A stretch of DNA of 58,679 nt, taken from positions 44,081 through 102,759 of the forward strand of contig NZ_LT797706.1 in NCBI RefSeq assembly GCF_900009135.1, read 5' to 3'. Positions 4,935 to 20,325 of the stretch are shown here, in pieces. The stretch comes from Planktothrix sp. PCC 11201 (GTDB lineage Bacteria; Cyanobacteriota; Cyanobacteriia; Cyanobacteriales; Microcoleaceae). The notes below the pieces were generated by a model. The model ran no database searches. It worked only from the letters and a program-made list of their open reading frames with translations, and was not told the DNA's origin. Both the position numbers and the translations under genes were made by a program. How positions within the stretch are numbered: position 1 is the first letter of the stretch; each line of letters starts with the position of its first letter.

Positions 4935-5128
4935 TATGACGCTAGAAACTCTAAAAGGGTGACTGGGTGGTGCAATTAAGTAGTGGACGCTGAAATTGAC
5001 CCACCATAAGTCTGTGTGCCCATTGTACTCTATCCCTAACCCTCAAGGCGGGCATCGGTTATTACTAATTGATTTCGGATTACTCAAGCTATTGGAAAGG
5101 CGAATAGATAAATATATAGCAAAAGATA

Positions 5129-5239
5129 GGTCGGGCGGGTTTATTTAGATTATTGGTGGGTAACATAATTTATCAGGTCGGGCGGGTTTATTTAGATTAT
5201 TGGTGGGTAACATAATTTTATCAGTGAACCCGCCCCTAC
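5129..5239. repeat. GGGCGGGTT interspersed repeat, tandem double copy
   Basis: A 47-bp unit beginning GGTCGGGCGGGTTTATTTAG is present twice head-to-tail (5129-5175 and 5176-5222). The second copy runs directly into TGAACCCGCCCCTAC, the inverted counterpart of GGGGCGGGTTC. A related block occurs at 5279-5340 and again at 7685-7750 and 25572-25633. The element has inverted ends and no coding capacity. Confidence 0.8.
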
Positions 5240-8086: not shown

Positions 8087-9790
8087 TTAAACCGCAGGTA
8101 ACTCATCCAAAATGGTAAACCGAACATGATTAATAGCTAAGGTTCCCAAAGAGACTTTTTCCCTGTCAACATCAACCCCTTCACTGGTCAATCGTTGAAA
8201 ACGAATACCCTTGCCAATTTCAATATGATACCAAGCTAATCCCATAAAAAATCGCAGAGGATAGGGCCCACCTTCTTGAATATCATCGGGGTTAGATTCC
8301 ATGGGAACCCAACCGAAACCAGGGATATAAAATTCTAACCAAACATGATTATATTCCGGTTGTAAAGGCACTCCTCGACGGTCAGCAAATTGCGGGCATT
8401 TATAACGGCCAATAGTTCGACAGGCGATGCCATTTAATCTGGCTAAAGCTAATAAAACCCCCACATATTCCCCACAGGAACCTATGCCTCGCTCCAGAAC
8501 TACATCAGGATTTTCAATCTTAGAAGTCAGACTATAGGATAACTGATCATAGACATAATTACGAATACTTAAAAGTTTTCGCAGGAAATTAGTTTCATTG
8601 CGAATTGCTTCCTTGGCTGCGGCTTGGACAACTGCCGTATTCATAGCTAAATGATCATCATCTACAAAATATTTCTCAGGCATATCTGGGGGAATTTCAG
8701 GTAAATTTTCCACTTGACGGGGATCAATTTGATATTTAATACTCCGAACTTCTAATAAGGCTTTCCAACCAAAAATTAAACGCTCCGTCGAGGTCAAAGG
8801 ATTAAATTGAAATACCGCAACTTTTTCCCCATCTTCCACTTCCTCTCGAAAAGGAATTCCAATGGCTGAAACCTCTAAAACCTTCTGGCGATTTGTATTA
8901 GAAGGTAAAGCAATTCGCCATTCTAAATTTTCAATATGAACCGCATCTAAGGGTTCTAATTCCTCCACATAGGACATTTCAATCAAATATCCATTAGAGG
9001 TGGCATAGTTTTCCTGGGAATTAAAATGAAAAGAGAGGGGATGGATAAAGGTGCGATCGCGTTTTGCTAATTCAAACTGATCATAAGAACTGGGATTATC
9101 TCGGATATAAAGTTCACTTCCAGCATAGGCTACATAGAGAACTTCTTCACCCGTTTCTGGATCGGTATAAAAGGTTAAACCACTGGGGGATTCAAAGGGA
9201 GTTAAGACACTAAATCGAGTTTCTCCCGTTGCCTTTTCTAAACAATAAACCGTTTGTTCTTCCCGATCACAAACCCATAATTCTTCATTTCTAATTGTTA
9301 AATTTTCTACCCCAATTCCTGGGGCAGAAAAGCGGGTAATTTCTCGTTTGGTATTTTGACTATAAACCAGAACAGAAGCAATGCGATCGCAAGCCAAGTA
9401 AAGAGTAGATTCATAAACCGCAATTCCAGTAGCTACATCCGGTAATTGCATGAACAATTGAGGCTCAAGATTAATAATAGAATTATCCTGAACAACCCGG
9501 GGACAAAAATAGACTTCATTTCCGCGAGTAAACCAAAGATTGTCCCCCCAAATTGCTAAACCTGTAACATCTCTAAAAGCCAAAGTTAAATCAGGATTAA
9601 CCACCTTGGCATTATCAGTTTTAGGGTCAATTTGCAGTAAAAATCCTCGGGAGGTATCAATCGCTAATAGGGTATTTCCTAGCCCCGTTAAGCCATATAA
9701 AGCCGAAACCCCAATCGGTCGAATTGTTCGAGGTTTAAAACTGCTATTTTTCCCAACAGTCAATGAGTTAAGATTCATAGAAATTGTCAT
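8087..9790 (-). CDS. transglutaminase-like protein with N-terminal propeller-like region
   Basis: About 567 residues if started at the ATG at 9790 (MTISMNLN); an ATG at 9778 is also possible and the frame stays open to 9859. The first ~280 residues have repeated beta-propeller-like strands (LLAIDTSRGFLLQID, LWFTRGNEVYFCP, LYLACDRIASVLVY, LWVCDREEQTVYCLE). The C-terminal part is a transglutaminase core: Cys439 in GSCGEYVGVLLALARLNGI, His482 in YNHVWLEF and the acidic Asn500-Pro-Asp502 segment where the third catalytic residue is expected. Such proteins act as cysteine peptidases or amide-bond enzymes; the substrate is unknown. No signal peptide is obvious. Confidence 0.85.
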   Translation of the reverse strand: MTISMNLNSLTVGKNSSFKPRTIRPIGVSALYGLTGLGNTLLAIDTSRGFLLQIDPKTDNAKVVNPDLTLAFRDVTGLAIWGDNLWFTRGNEVYFCPRVVQDNSIINLEPQLFMQLPDVATGIAVYESTLYLACDRIASVLVYSQNTKREITRFSAPGIGVENLTIRNEELWVCDREEQTVYCLEKATGETRFSVLTPFESPSGLTFYTDPETGEEVLYVAYAGSELYIRDNPSSYDQFELAKRDRTFIHPLSFHFNSQENYATSNGYLIEMSYVEELEPLDAVHIENLEWRIALPSNTNRQKVLEVSAIGIPFREEVEDGEKVAVFQFNPLTSTERLIFGWKALLEVRSIKYQIDPRQVENLPEIPPDMPEKYFVDDDHLAMNTAVVQAAAKEAIRNETNFLRKLLSIRNYVYDQLSYSLTSKIENPDVVLERGIGSCGEYVGVLLALARLNGIACRTIGRYKCPQFADRRGVPLQPEYNHVWLEFYIPGFGWVPMESNPDDIQEGGPYPLRFFMGLAWYHIEIGKGIRFQRLTSEGVDVDREKVSLGTLAINHVRFTILDELPAV

Positions 9791-9914
9791 TATAGATGAA
9801 ATCAGGATATTTATTGATCGAATCAGGTCAAAGTTCAGACTTAGGATAGGCGACAACACCTAAATTTTCCTAAAATCTGATTCAGACTCAAACATTTAAG
9901 ATTAAGCACAGATT

Positions 9915-9946
9915 TTGACAAATTTTGCAGGAACATTAGATACAAT
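9915..9946 (+). promoter_or_regulatory. candidate promoter for the DUF928 gene
   Basis: TTGACA at 9915-9920 and TACAAT at 9941-9946 face the DUF928 gene start at 9999. The 20-bp spacer is longer than the usual 17, so the TACAAT hexamer is the firmer half. Confidence 0.4.
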
Positions 9947-14085: not shown

Positions 14086-14107
14086 ACGTTCTCCTTGTGT
14101 TTGAAAT

Positions 14108-14161
14108 TTAGCTAGATAGAAACCCGAACATTTTCAATGTCTATAGTTTCTATCTAGCTAA
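14108..14161. promoter_or_regulatory. 16-bp perfect inverted repeat in the leader of the exported-protein gene
   Basis: TTAGCTAGATAGAAAC at 14108-14123 and its exact reverse complement at 14146-14161 are separated by 22 bp. Imperfect complementarity continues outward (GTTTGAA on both sides), and another TTAGCTAG copy follows near 14181. It sits 23-76 bp upstream of the start codon at 14085. It could be an operator for a dimeric regulator or a hairpin in the 5' leader. Confidence 0.6.
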
Positions 14162-14332
14162 GTTCAAACTTGTGTTAAAATTAGCTAGTTTGAATTAAAA
14201 CTATTCAGATATTGGATAGCGGGGTTAAATCAAAACTTAAAACTATTTATTTGGGCTAATTCGCTCAGATAAATAATTATAACTCATCATTTTAACTAGG
14301 TATTATTATAGGATAATTTGTGATTCTGTACA

Positions 14333-14438
14333 GTCGGAAAAAGTCGGATTAAGTCGGGAATTTTATAATTTCTTTTTCTGTTAAAAAGTCGGAAAAAGTC
14401 GGAGAAAGTGGTTGAGGTCGGAAAAAGTCGGGTACAAT
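14333..14438 (+). promoter_or_regulatory. helically spaced GTCGG pentamer array with promoter
   Basis: Exact GTCGG occurs at 14333, 14343, 14353, 14388, 14398, 14417 and 14427, with a degenerate copy (GTGGT) at 14408. Within clusters the spacing is 10 bp (once 9), one turn of DNA; the two main clusters are 35 bp apart. The last pentamer touches a TACAAT -10 hexamer at 14433-14438, with TTGAGG at 14412-14417 as a possible -35. The array ends 30 bp before the HTH-STAND start codon. It looks like a cooperative binding site for a regulator, possibly the gene's own HTH domain (inference). Confidence 0.75.
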
Positions 14439-14467
14439 AGAGACAAAACTAACATCTAACACAGGGT

Positions 14468-15850
14468 ATGGACGTGCAAGAAGTCCTCAGACTAGCGGAT
14501 CACTTGGTTTTTACCAAGACGGGAAAGCGCCTAGATGATCTTCAAGAAGCGATATTAAGGGGGAGTTTAGAGAGCGAAAAATACTCAAAAGTGGCGGATG
14601 CGTTTCACTGTTCTGAGGGTCATGTCAAGGATATTGCTTCTGATTTATGGAAAATTCTCTCCGATGCTTTAGGGGAAGAAGTGAGAAAATATAATTTACG
14701 TTCGACTCTGAATCGGCAAAAATATTCTAATTTCCTAAATTTTGCTAAAGATTCTGTACAAATTAATCATATTAATGTTTGTAATGAACCTCCTTTATCC
14801 TCAGATGATTCTGTTACGCCTAAAAATAATAAAAATCAACCTTTATTAAGAGTTAATTTAGATGATGCACCGGATATTTATGAATTTTTTGGACGAATAG
14901 AAGAACTGGAAACTTTAACAGATTGGATACTCGAACAACGCTGTCGAGTGGTGATGCTTTTGGGGATGAGTGGGATCGGAAAAACCGCATTAGCGGTTAA
15001 ATTAGTTCAAGAGATTCAACAACATTTTGATCTGGTAATCTGGCAAAGTTTGGAGACTGCACCCGCTTTAAATGAATTATTAATAAATTTACTGCAATTT
15101 TTATTAGATAAACCAGCAAATCAACTTCCGATCAATTTGAATGAACAATTGAGTGAATTAATGAAGGGATTGCGATCGCAACGTTGCTTAATTATTTTAG
15201 ATGATTTTCAAACTCTATTTAATTCAGGTCAATTAGCTGGAAATTATCGACCAAATTTTGAGAATTATCGGTTATTTATTAAAAAAATTAGTCAATTCAA
15301 TCACCAAAGCTGTATTATACTAAATAGTTGGGAATTACCAAAAGATTTAATTGAATTAAGAGGGAAAAATACAGCGATACATTATTTATTGCTTTCTGGT
15401 TTAGGAGAATCAGCAAAAGATTTGTTAAAAGCTCAGGGATTATCAGATATTGAAAATTGGAATACTTTACTTGATTATTATGGGGGAAATCCATATTTTC
15501 TAAATAGTATTTCTACAGTTATTAAAAATTTATTTGGGGGTAAAGTTTCTGAATTTTTAGACTATGAAACTTTATTTCTAGGAGAGGATTTAACGGAAAG
15601 TTTGACCCAACAGTTTAATCGGTTATCGGAATTAGAGCAAAAAATTATTATTCATTTAGGACAAATTCCTAATGGGATTATGCTATCAGAGTTTCAATCT
15701 AATCTAAAAATATCTCATTCAGATGTATTAAAAGCCTTAGCTTCTTTAGGACAAAGGTGTTGGATTGAAAGATTAGAATTAGATAATAAAACCTATTTTA
15801 CCCTTCAACCGATGCTGAAATATTATATAGCGAGTCTAAATGAATTGTAA
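14468..15850 (+). CDS. HTH-STAND NTPase (vMAP-type N-terminal HTH plus NB-ARC), no sensor repeats
   Basis: 460 residues. Residues about 1-85 match the small helix-turn-helix domain found at the start of many cyanobacterial STAND proteins (vWA-MoxR-associated type): a helix-rich segment YSKVADAFHCSEGHVKDIASDLW. An NB-ARC-like NTPase follows from about 135: Walker A GMSGIGKTAL with Lys172, Walker B LIILDDFQTLF with Asp245 and Asp246, and a GGNPYFL (GLPL-like) motif near 340. The protein ends with a winged-helix-like segment. Most relatives carry WD40 or TPR sensor repeats after this; here there are none, so a partner or small ligand must do the sensing. A GTCGG array overlaps its promoter. Confidence 0.85.
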   Translation: MDVQEVLRLADHLVFTKTGKRLDDLQEAILRGSLESEKYSKVADAFHCSEGHVKDIASDLWKILSDALGEEVRKYNLRSTLNRQKYSNFLNFAKDSVQINHINVCNEPPLSSDDSVTPKNNKNQPLLRVNLDDAPDIYEFFGRIEELETLTDWILEQRCRVVMLLGMSGIGKTALAVKLVQEIQQHFDLVIWQSLETAPALNELLINLLQFLLDKPANQLPINLNEQLSELMKGLRSQRCLIILDDFQTLFNSGQLAGNYRPNFENYRLFIKKISQFNHQSCIILNSWELPKDLIELRGKNTAIHYLLLSGLGESAKDLLKAQGLSDIENWNTLLDYYGGNPYFLNSISTVIKNLFGGKVSEFLDYETLFLGEDLTESLTQQFNRLSELEQKIIIHLGQIPNGIMLSEFQSNLKISHSDVLKALASLGQRCWIERLELDNKTYFTLQPMLKYYIASLNEL

Positions 15851-16420: not shown

Positions 16421-17287
16421 GTGAAATTAGCAGTCTACGGTAAAGGCGGAATCGGTAAATCAACCACAAGCTGTAATATTTCTGCCGCTTTAGCCAAACG
16501 GGGTAAAAAAGTCCTGCAAATTGGCTGCGATCCCAAACACGACAGCACCTTTACCCTCACGGGGTTTTTAATTCCCACGATTATTGATACCTTGCAGGAA
16601 AAAGACTTTCATTACGAAGATATTTGGCCAGAAGATGTGATTTACAAAGGCTATGCCGGGGTCGATTGCGTGGAAGCGGGGGGCCCTCCGGCGGGGGCTG
16701 GATGTGGCGGTTACGTCGTGGGAGAAACCGTCAAACTCCTGAAAGAACTCAACGCCTTTGACGAATACGATGTCATCTTATTTGATGTTTTAGGAGACGT
16801 GGTTTGTGGTGGTTTTGCCGCCCCCCTCAACTATGCCGACTATTGTGTGATTGTCACCGATAACGGTTTTGATGCCCTGTTTGCCGCCAACCGCATCGCC
16901 GCCTCAGTCCGAGAAAAAGCCCGCACTCACCCCCTACGGTTAGCTGGTTTAATTGGCAACCGCACCTCGAAACGGGATTTGATTGAAAAATACATTGAAA
17001 CCGTCCCCATGCCCGTGTTAGAAGTGTTGCCATTAATCGAAGATATTCGGGTTTCTCGGGTCAAAGGAAAAACCCTATTTGAGATGGCCGAAACCGATCC
17101 CTCCCTCAACTATGTCTGTGACTACTACCTGAATATTGCCGACCAACTATTATCCCAACCCGAAGGAGTCGTCCCCCAAGACACCCCGGATCGGGAATTG
17201 TTCTCATTGTTATCAGATTTTTATCTAAATCCGAGTCAACCCCTTGTTCAAAGTCACGATCCTGAGCTAGACCTGATGATGGTTTAA
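16421..17287 (+). CDS. chlL: light-independent protochlorophyllide reductase iron-sulfur ATP-binding protein
   Basis: The electron-donating, NifH-like subunit of dark-operative protochlorophyllide reductase, which reduces ring D of protochlorophyllide in chlorophyll synthesis without light. The 288-residue length is standard. It carries the [10 protein letters not shown]-loop near residue 8, the Cys in [11 protein letters not shown] and the Cys in [11 protein letters not shown] that ligate the shared 4Fe-4S cluster of the homodimer. The start is GTG at 16421 with an AAGGAG Shine-Dalgarno 9 bp upstream. A DUF5331 gene and chlN follow on the same strand, an arrangement seen in other cyanobacteria. 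chlB is not in the window. Confidence 0.98.
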
Positions 17288-17323
17288 TATGTCTAGCTAT
17301 CTCAGGATGAGGATATAGAGGTT

Positions 17324-18799
17324 ATGGCTTTCTTCAAAGACTTTTCCGTCGCACTTAAAGATAAGTGGTTGCAATATTACCAGGCCAATCGGGATTGGCT
17401 GGTGCTGCAAATGGATTTGAATTCAATCCCGACCCCAGATGGCGGTCGAAGACCTGCCTCATCCCTCATTTTGGGAACGATCAACGCCCTTGACCCCGAG
17501 GCAGCCCAATTGATGTTGCCATTTTCGAGGCTCAATCCCGATCCCGAAAAACTGATTGAGGTATTAGGGCTAAATTTTGACCCGGATTTGGCGTTGGGTG
17601 GTAGGTCTACATCGGAACAGCCTGCAACTGTTGTGGTTCAAGCCCCAACTTCTGTTCCCGTTGCCCCAGGTTACTCTCCCTCAACAGAAATACCTACTTC
17701 CGTAGCTCAGGCTGTCCCTGGATATCATCCTCCGGCACCTCCAGAAACAGCGAGTTTAGAGGGGGACATCACCCCGGCACAAAAACTCAATGTTGCGGGT
17801 GCTGTGGCGGTTGCGGCGGGCGCTGCTGCGGTTGTGGGTGGGGCTGCGGTGATGGAGGAAACCCTTGATGACTTCGATCTCGAAGAAGAAGAAATCACCA
17901 TCGATGATGATTTGGACATGGGGGATCTGGATACGGATGTCGGTGAGGATCTGGATTTAGATATCGACGCAGAGACAGCTACCGCAGCCGAGGAAGACTT
18001 TGATTTTGGGTTGGGGGATGAATCAGAATCTCTGGAGACTGATGACCTAGATATGGACTTGGAGTCTGATGAACTTGAATCCGATGATTTGGATATGAGT
18101 TTGGAATCCGATGAACTTGAATCCGATGATTTGGATATGAGTTTGGAGTCCGATGAACTTGAATCCGATGATTTGGATATGAGTTTGGAGTCTGATGAAC
18201 TTGAATCCGATGATTTGGATATGAGTTTGGAGTCTGATGATTTGGATATGAGTTTAGAGTCCGATGAACTTGAATCCGATGATTTGGATATGAGTTTGGA
18301 GTCCGATGAACTTGAATCCGATGATTTGGATTTTGGGCTAGAGTCGGAAACAACATCGGCGGAATTGGACATCAATACCGACTCGGATGTCTGGGGAGAT
18401 GAGGTTCAGACGGAACTGGGAGAAGATGATGGTTCGACTAATGAGCTCGATCTGAGTTTAGACTCCTCCGATGAGATTGGTTTAGGGGGAATGGATGATT
18501 TTGGGTTAGAAGCGGACGACCTCGGTTCAGACGAGATCGGCGAGTTGGAATTAGGAGATACGGATTCCGGTCTGGATGATGATCTCGGTGATTTCGGGTT
18601 AGAAGATAGTTCCTCCGATGGCTTAGGCTTCGATACTGGAGGCAATTTAGATGATTTGGGATTAGGAGATGATGATTTAGGGGAGTTTAATCTCGATGAT
18701 ATGGGGGATTTAACCACGGGAGATATGGATGATATCGATATCGAAGGGTTAACTGGTTCTTCCGATGATGATGAAATTTCCCTGTCGGATTTTAAATAA
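17324..18799 (+). CDS. DUF5331 protein with acidic tandem repeats
   Basis: 491 residues, encoded between chlL and chlN. Residues about 1-95 form the DUF5331 domain (FFKDFSVALKDKWLQYYQAN, SIPTPDGGRRPASSLILGTINALDPEAAQLMLPFS). A Pro-rich linker follows, then a short Ala/Val-rich hydrophobic segment (about 151-176), then about 300 very acidic residues. Within the acidic tail, residues about 249-345 are a 14-residue repeat DELESDDLDMSLES. The tail is probably disordered. The function is unknown; the conserved position suggests a role with the dark-operative reductase, such as assembly or protection, but that is inference. It starts 37 bp after chlL and is probably co-transcribed. Confidence 0.85.
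   Translation: MAFFKDFSVALKDKWLQYYQANRDWLVLQMDLNSIPTPDGGRRPASSLILGTINALDPEAAQLMLPFSRLNPDPEKLIEVLGLNFDPDLALGGRSTSEQPATVVVQAPTSVPVAPGYSPSTEIPTSVAQAVPGYHPPAPPETASLEGDITPAQKLNVAGAVAVAAGAAAVVGGAAVMEETLDDFDLEEEEITIDDDLDMGDLDTDVGEDLDLDIDAETATAAEEDFDFGLGDESESLETDDLDMDLESDELESDDLDMSLESDELESDDLDMSLESDELESDDLDMSLESDELESDDLDMSLESDDLDMSLESDELESDDLDMSLESDELESDDLDFGLESETTSAELDINTDSDVWGDEVQTELGEDDGSTNELDLSLDSSDEIGLGGMDDFGLEADDLGSDEIGELELGDTDSGLDDDLGDFGLEDSSSDGLGFDTGGNLDDLGLGDDDLGEFNLDDMGDLTTGDMDDIDIEGLTGSSDDDEISLSDFK
18068..18331 (+). repeat. 42-bp coding tandem repeat in the DUF5331 gene
   Basis: Units start at 18068, 18110, 18152, 18194, 18263 and 18305. A shortened 27-bp unit lies at 18236-18262. Copies differ at only one or two positions (for example TCC or TCT at the end), so the array is young. 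All length changes are multiples of three, so the frame is kept. Confidence 0.92.
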
Positions 18800-18906
18800 T
18801 TTCCCGACTTAGTTTCCTAATCCTTAATCGGGTTTGGACTTTGGATCGTGCCGATTCAAAGTCATAGATATTCTTGTCAAATTTTGAGTACAAAACATCC
18901 GATTAA

Positions 18907-20325
<1,419 letters not shown>

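Follow-up and report, generated by a model that had tools for sequence, protein, structure and literature searches.

A 58,679-nucleotide stretch of the genome of the cyanobacterium Planktothrix sp. PCC 11201 (contig NZ_LT797706.1, positions 44,081 to 102,759 of the forward strand; hereafter the window, whose first letter is position 1) contains an array of short direct repeats in steps of about 10 base pairs (bp) at the promoter of P0001, a gene encoding a helix-turn-helix (HTH) domain fused to a STAND nucleoside triphosphatase (NTPase). Here we report that comparable arrays precede many homologues of this gene, and that the bases of the repeats covary with residues of the recognition helix encoded by the gene that follows. 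Covariation with a gene's own recognition helix is the signature expected if each protein reads its own array, and on this sequence evidence the array at P0001 is very probably an operator read by the gene's own N-terminal HTH domain, through which the protein would control its own promoter; that the contact is direct we infer.

A phased repeat array precedes P0001

Exact copies of GTCGG start on the plus strand at positions 14333, 14343, 14353, 14388, 14398, 14417 and 14427, all seven where the initial annotation of the window had placed them, in successive steps of 10, 10, 35, 10, 19 and 10 bp. The first three form a putative distal operator cluster (14333..14357, plus strand), recognized from the sequence, from a tandem repeat finder that reports a period of 10 at the array, and from the invariance of its cores. 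An AT-rich gap (14358..14387), evident in the orthologue alignment, separates it from a proximal cluster of four exact copies (14388..14431, plus strand), defined by sequence and by a register to the -10 hexamer that is found across the family. Within this cluster a degenerate eighth unit, visible in the sequence as GTGGT (14408-14412, plus strand), splits the 19-bp step into 10 and 9 bp; the 10-bp steps and 35-bp gap of the annotation are accurate, and its 9-bp step exists only if this unit is counted. The last GTCGG ends at 14431, one base before the putative promoter -10 hexamer TACAAT (14433-14438, plus strand), rather than touching it as had been written. TAnnnT-like hexamers upstream of homologues support the assignment of this hexamer, and 29 bp, not 30, lie between it and the ATG at 14468 of a downstream gene that is present as annotated.

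None of 5,000 dinucleotide shuffles of the intergenic region 14086-14467 contained seven GTCGG (the largest number was 4), and none contained four GTCGG pairs at exactly 10 bp. Other 106-bp stretches of the window hold at most 2 copies on the plus strand and 3 on the minus strand. The pentamer is overrepresented over both strands of the window as a whole (102 occurrences, 60 expected), so that the signal lies in clustering and phasing and not in the count.

The comparison of orthologous arrays that the initial annotation had suggested shows cores that are kept and spacers that change. Two relatives are Planktothrix rubescens PCC 7821 (94% in the best segment) and a Planktothrix metagenome-assembled genome (90%). 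Among the arrays of the window and two Planktothrix orthologues none of 35 core columns varies, as against 13 of 64 spacer columns; the AT-rich gap has diverged in P. rubescens PCC 7821 at unchanged length, and the single indel is exactly 10 bp. An indel of one unit is what a 10-bp minisatellite without function, arisen by chance or replication slippage, would also produce, and other short tandem repeats do occur in the window. Invariant cores beside variable spacers, and the fixed phase of the repeats relative to the -10 hexamer in held-out genes (see below), nevertheless led us to reject a chance repeat, which we regard as exceedingly improbable.

P0001 occupies 14468..15850 on the plus strand, an open reading frame (ORF) of 460 amino acids (aa). 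Its N-terminal HTH domain of 84 aa (14468..14719) was delimited by a profile search that finds 27 copies in the genome, and an NB-ARC/AAA_16 NTPase region with the P-loop GMSGIGKT follows at 14882..15220 (Pfam and sequence). The NB-ARC match (E = 2e-12, residues 146-246) identifies a STAND NTPase, and the annotated fusion of an HTH domain to such an NTPase is borne out. The recognition helix starts with S49-D55 (SEGHVKD, 14612..14632, plus strand), assigned by covariation with repeat bases; the covarying residues are 51 (14618-14620), 54 (14627-14629) and 55 (14630-14632).

In Pfam searches at E <= 0.1, 8 of 24 aligned HTH members match Sigma70_r4, 8 of 24 match Sigma70_r4_2 and 2 of 24 match GerE; the HTH of P0001 itself matches neither Sigma70_r4 nor GerE. 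The same scans gave no match to a VMAP family for P0001 or the 24 members, in a library whose content of VMAP models was unchecked, and the label 'vMAP-type' used in the annotation is to that extent unsupported. In the passages of PMC7159879 on which we draw, HTH domains are mentioned only as possible effectors. A match of P0001 to FxSxx_TPR (NCBIfam) is limited to the NTPase part, and its PADLOC matches are weak and lie mostly in that part. An HTH profile match to PDB entry 5i8l, which is named a lysozyme (E = 3.7e-07), was judged spurious. An AlphaFold model of full-length P0001 from a two-row alignment had a mean predicted local distance difference test (pLDDT) score of 38.4 and is not used as evidence; its helices at residues 38-45 and 50-75 do not contradict the recognition-helix assignment.

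The large ORFs that come next downstream look like chlL and chlN. Within 16421-20325 they stand on either side of a long acidic protein, whose internal repeats of 42 bp lie at 17324-18799. No evident target gene adjoins P0001. Elsewhere in the window, 5128-5224 holds a 47-bp tandem repeat of two copies that are 98% alike.

Phased arrays recur upstream of paralogues and homologues

The HTH domain of P0001 occurs in 27 copies in its own genome (profile search, E <= 0.01). A search of 35 cyanobacterial genomes at E <= 1e-6 found it in 31, and a search of another 35 at E <= 1e-20 found it in 33; both sets were hand-picked inside the phylum, and at these stricter cut-offs the 70 genomes have 0 to 21 copies each. 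The first set supplied 90 genes, taken from 30 of its 31 positive genomes, which together with the 27 own genes made 117 training genes; removal of similar upstream regions left 110. A held-out set of 110 genes was drawn from the second, in which 30 of the 33 positive genomes were used. Training genes from other genomes and held-out genes represent part of the matches listed, and a single match was passed over for a stop codon inside its frame.

When scored with a matrix that ignores both variable core bases, an array (p <= 0.05) stands upstream of 69 of the 110 genes in the training set and of 84 of the 110 in the held-out set; among other genes in the window the figure is 3 of 38. Phased arrays are thus indeed commoner upstream of homologues, as the initial annotation had expected. 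In the 45 training arrays with p <= 0.01, 131 of 233 steps are 10 bp, 27 are 9 bp and 26 are 11 bp, as counted with a chaining score that favors 10 bp. A motif-free measure, the self-similarity of upstream regions at a lag of 10 bp, gives z = 11.8 for the 160-bp upstreams of the 27 own paralogues, and for 110 non-redundant upstreams (own and 30 genomes) z = 19.7, with 9.4 at a lag of 20 bp. A control stretch at -450..-300 gives z = -1.9 at lag 10 and a 3-bp period alone; in a second control, the coding start, the lag-10 value is z = 6.4 and some other lags score higher.

Within the Planktothrix genome, 18 of 27 paralogues have significant arrays (p <= 0.05), with the unit spelled GTCGG, GTTGG, GTGGG, GTAGG or GTCAGG, among others. 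The pentamer that the annotation took as the unit is accordingly not conserved, and what is conserved is the 10-bp phase together with a frame consisting of an A-tract and GT-N-N-G. GTCGG itself precedes L012, L013, L019 and L031. The pattern AGTCGGN4AGTCGG occurs at only two places in this genome (4 overlapping matches), both directly 5' of an HTH-family gene in the same orientation; the place other than P0001 is the paralogue L012 (C19:653219-653470, a 169-aa ORF), whose array runs into TATAAT. The looser pattern AAGTNGGN3AAGTNGG has 6 matches in the genome and 0 in reversed controls, 5 of them at promoters of 4 HTH genes and 1 within a coding frame.

Two paralogues too short to contain the NTPase, L012 and L014 (a 174-aa open frame), also carry arrays (p = 0.005). 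They show that the NTPase is unnecessary for keeping a phased operator, and the oligomerizing STAND NTPase that the initial annotation invoked is thus not needed to explain the phasing.

Arrays are rare upstream of homologues with GPK-type helices (...DVGPK; L027, L089, L117, L120, L125 and others), at 2 of 11 compared with 67 of 99; in some of these homologues the open frame reaches or exceeds about 1,200 aa. By eye, L204, L207 and L208, whose helix reads EGHTRD, have arrays with 9-bp and mixed 9/11-bp steps made of AAATGTCGG units. The second-highest array score of the window falls at 9815-9940, upstream of a minus-strand gene (ATG at 9790, GTG at 9859), a stretch that includes the 10-bp tandem ACAAATTTTG.

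Some repeats lie apart from the family. At L266:1501-1523 (G022:C1:1077904), AAGTGGGGGTAAGTGGG runs straight into TATAAT in non-coding DNA with no HTH gene nearby, possibly a target outside the family or a product of chance. At L262 (G306:C2:1086338-1086418), CGACTT-type repeats follow one another in steps of 10 and 12 bp, and the 3 kb retrieved there contain no HTH gene. For a three-copy GTCGG pattern in 386 genomes there are, among the matches listed, seven in six genomes: two at the P0001 gene and its orthologue, and five without an HTH in the 3 kb retrieved.

The spelling of the repeats covaries with the recognition helix

Covariation was scanned in the 48 of 110 training genes that combined an array at p <= 0.05 with two or more usable repeats and shared less than 70% HTH identity with one another. 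The scan paired 83 residues with 8 repeat columns, leaving out a constant column and column idx8; the columns that matter below are the base before the core (idx3), the first core base (idx4), core base 3 (idx6) and core base 4 (idx7). The matrix used to choose repeats disregarded core bases 3 and 4 but did take idx3 and idx4 into account. Ranked by Z, the top four pairs were residue 54 with idx3, 55 with idx7, 54 with idx4 and 51 with idx6, each reached in 0 of 500 permutations and all within the recognition helix; two of them, 54 with idx3 and 55 with idx7, pass the family-wise threshold. Four weaker pairs also reach 0/500, two of which involve residues outside the helix (19 and 32).

The rules that emerged are simple. 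At idx3 and idx4, lysine at residue 54 goes with AG, arginine with TG, and a small residue with A instead of G. For core base 3, residue 51 pairs G with C, D with G, K with T, and S, A, T or V with A. For core base 4, D or K at residue 55 goes with G and N with a base other than G. P0001, with G51, K54 and D55, is predicted to read AAAAGTCGGA, which is the sequence standing upstream of it.

These rules were fixed before the held-out set was retrieved; the held-out sequences were viewed before scoring, and their repeats were picked blind to whichever column was being tested. Tests were confined to genes with a detected array and a residue covered by a rule. The majority base was as predicted in 46 of 54 genes for idx6, 45 of 72 for idx4, 55 of 68 for idx3 and 45 of 73 for idx7, where shuffles gave 32.1, 37.5, 34.8 and 37.7, respectively, and in all four cases 0 of 5,000 shuffles did as well. 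Among the 110 held-out genes, 39 are below 70% HTH identity to every training gene and 40 are at 80% or more; below 70%, three of the rules hold (16/18, 18/22 and 18/25 majority bases). S51 belonged to the prior rules, was omitted from the first held-out scoring since it was split between A and T in training, and was restored later; with it the idx6 test covers 75 of 110 genes (14 had a residue 51 without a rule) and succeeds in 57, against 29.1 in shuffles, and in 24 of 27 against 11.7 below 70% identity. The residue-51 test is carried mostly by the pairing of G with C, the D, K, A and T rules being met by few genes. For N55, the predicted C or T was not borne out, the base being often A.

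Because promoter and gene lie in cis and the paralogues are related, covariation could come solely from joint inheritance of both from common ancestors, and that residues 19 and 32, outside the helix, also reach 0/500 would fit such an origin. We consider it very unlikely. The top four pairs of the 83-residue scan all fall in the recognition helix, three of the four residue/base rules hold below 70% identity to training, and in disjoint nearest sister pairs with unlike residues at a helix position, the base predicted to respond is in most cases different too (43:8, 43:5, 20:0 and 18:2 in agreement, training and held-out genes pooled). That a single shared regulator reads all the arrays, in place of each gene's own product, would account for the A-tract and GT-N-N-G frame and for the promoter geometry common to the family; it predicts no covariation, however, and the spelling tracks each gene's own helix in held-out genes and between near sisters. 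This speaks against one shared reader, and we rejected it as highly improbable.

Reading of each array by the gene's own HTH domain is thus the explanation we prefer, as befits a self-regulating family with a recognition code, in which own helix and own upstream bases covary. The initial proposal that the protein or a related HTH protein reads the array and controls the promoter gains support insofar as arrays are enriched at homologues and their spelling covaries with the helix. Two results weigh against it. First, the correspondence between residue 54 and the first core base fails below 70% identity (12/17, matched by 1,466 of 5,000 shuffles). Second, over 31 genomes AAGTNGGN3AAGTNGG is less clean than in Planktothrix, with 54 matches against 42 in the control and at least 18 of the 54 at HTH promoters. 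Thirty of these places were retrieved as loci and 9 more were placed at HTH promoters by their coordinates; of the 30, an HTH follows closely in 9 and is missing in the other 21, of which 15 fall inside open frames of 200 codons or longer. A mutual-information test of single positions, aligned on the -10 hexamer, did not find the recognition helix, probably because many genes lack a repeat in exact register; the covariation scan takes all repeats of a gene together.

Read by the code, the paralogues fall into putative address classes, some of which are shared. The GTCGG class is one of these (L012, L013, L019 and L031), so that cross-talk within it is expected; between P0001 and L012, cross-talk or competition is predicted.

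Promoter geometry and the sign of regulation

A TAnnnT-like hexamer stands upstream of 83 of the 110 training homologues, with a modal distance of 35 bp from hexamer start to ATG. Columns anchored on it show A-tracts in steps of about 10 bp and a GT-N-N-G core ending one base 5' of the hexamer; T stands at -5 in 74% and G at -2 in 71% of the 83 promoters, and core base 3 is nearly free. When the training matrix is applied to the 91 held-out genes that have a hexamer, repeats peak at -10, -20, -30, -40, -68 and -78 with frequencies of 0.55, 0.26, 0.25, 0.11, 0.13 and 0.10 (-21 reaches 0.09) over a background of 0.008, so that the two clusters of the window, one proximal and one distal, are seen here too. 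A match to at least 4/6 of TTGACA occurs in 25% of the 91 held-out promoters, compared with 13% in shuffles; three quarters are without one.

These observations suggest a mechanism in which the N-terminal HTH domain would read one repeat, an A-tract with GT-N-N-G, per helical turn at a 10-bp step. Starting at the -10 hexamer and proceeding upstream, protomers would line up along nearly the same face of the double helix, over the proximal and then the distal cluster, and, presumably cooperatively, would control the gene's own promoter.

As to the sign of this control, we lean towards positive autoregulation, since repeats and -10 hexamer keep an exact register, most promoters have no good -35 hexamer, and the arrangement parallels that of AfsR and the SARP regulators. 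The opposite sign, autorepression, in which the resting HTH domain would sit on the array and exclude RNA polymerase from the -10 hexamer and spacer until a STAND signal or depletion released it, is possible though somewhat doubtful. The best-conserved site abuts the -10 hexamer, a usual position for a repressor, the short paralogues L012 and L014 have arrays as well, and the partial -35 match kept in a quarter of held-out promoters agrees with it. Occlusion, however, needs no exact register, yet the offsets are fixed out to -78; most promoters lack a good -35 hexamer; and the STAND-HTH regulators described in the passages of PMC10936776 at hand, AfsR and MalT, are activators.

Plasmid and phage relatives

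A tblastn search with the HTH domain of the window matched 26 of 72,556 plasmid records, all of which we take from their genus names to be cyanobacterial. It matched one phage, Planktothrix phage PaV-LD, present under two accessions. The matching protein, ORF120L (L276:2483-2800), has 105 aa and is essentially an HTH domain alone; among 227 host HTHs compared, it is nearest to the YIGD class (58%), which includes one paralogue from the Planktothrix genome studied here (56%). A search with the phage protein found relatives of 67-98% identity on 34 viral contigs (L279-L312); scanning the viral contigs with a two-row HTH alignment gave no match. In 28 of the 35 phage and viral loci the helix reads NYGSAYIGDK or GYDPGYIGDK, the closest host class being YIGD. 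No phased pair of CCTGA, the repeat type at the closest host paralogue, is present in the 5.2-kb PaV-LD locus, and a word search of the main text of PMC10343443, on PaV-LD-like sequences, found ORF120 unnamed.

Discussion

The nearest described parallel to P0001 comes from Streptomyces. According to the passages of PMC10936776 on which we draw, AfsR is a STAND regulator that acts on direct repeats one turn apart beside the -10 hexamer and activates by 'sigma adaptation', and SARP proteins combine an OmpR-type DNA-binding domain with repeats spaced by 11 or 22 bp, the last of which stops 8 bp short of the -10 hexamer. P0001 resembles AfsR in joining an N-terminal DNA-binding domain to a STAND-type NTPase, and its promoter resembles those of AfsR and SARP targets in having direct repeats one helical turn apart just 5' of the -10 hexamer and a poor -35. 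P0001 departs from the SARP case as described there in having an HTH of another type than OmpR, repeats at a 10-bp step of which the last stands 1 bp from the -10 hexamer, and an array of up to eight units that forms two clusters, lies at the promoter of the regulator itself and is spelled differently among paralogues. No OmpR-type (Trans_reg_C) or BTA family was found in P0001 or the 24 HTH members (Pfam, E <= 0.1). Membership in the SARP family, which the helical-turn repeats would fit, was rejected on these missing domains and on the 8-bp distance to the -10 hexamer.

Other regulators share single features. MalT has a C-terminal LuxR-type HTH and a TPR sensor. P0001 has no GerE or TPR match in Pfam, which sets it apart from the MalT/LAL group, and its HTH is N-terminal (residues 1-84), unlike that of MalT. 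LacI dimers bind palindromes. In the LacI family, as reported in the part of PMC2978694 consulted, recognition residues covary with operator bases beside the own gene, as they do here; the group of P0001 differs in belonging to another HTH family, in the residues involved and in its tandem direct repeats. MalT nonetheless resembles P0001 in combining a STAND NTPase with an HTH that controls promoters, to judge from the same passages of PMC10936776.

Within cyanobacteria, the passages of PMC11119718 at hand describe sigma-70-like proteins with NB-ARC, WD40 or TPR_MalT accessory domains, counted there as sigma factors. These proteins and the family of P0001 have in common a combination of sigma-region domains with NB-ARC, and some of the entries may belong to the HTH family of P0001; operators are not mentioned in those passages. 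Among the papers listed by searches of an open-license library we found no description of operators of the present kind, and one elsewhere is possible.

A broader and rather unlikely reading would see in these genes self-addressed, partly insulated switches of an immune-like conflict system, whose arrays and helices co-diversify under pressure from phages whose HTH-only relatives, such as ORF120L of PaV-LD, would serve as decoys or silencers at host arrays.

Cyanobacterial genomes hold up to about two dozen uncharacterized genes of this kind, many of them linked to STAND NTPases, and the covariation described here provides them with a readable address. Because helix residues predict operator bases, regulators and operators can be assigned to each other, the pairs put directly to the test and cross-talk between them predicted; orthogonal sets of promoters and regulators for laboratory cyanobacteria might possibly be built. 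The family would also offer a testable case of an HTH protein that lines up one unit per helical turn beside RNA polymerase, as well as a lead to the role of its phage-borne, HTH-only relatives.
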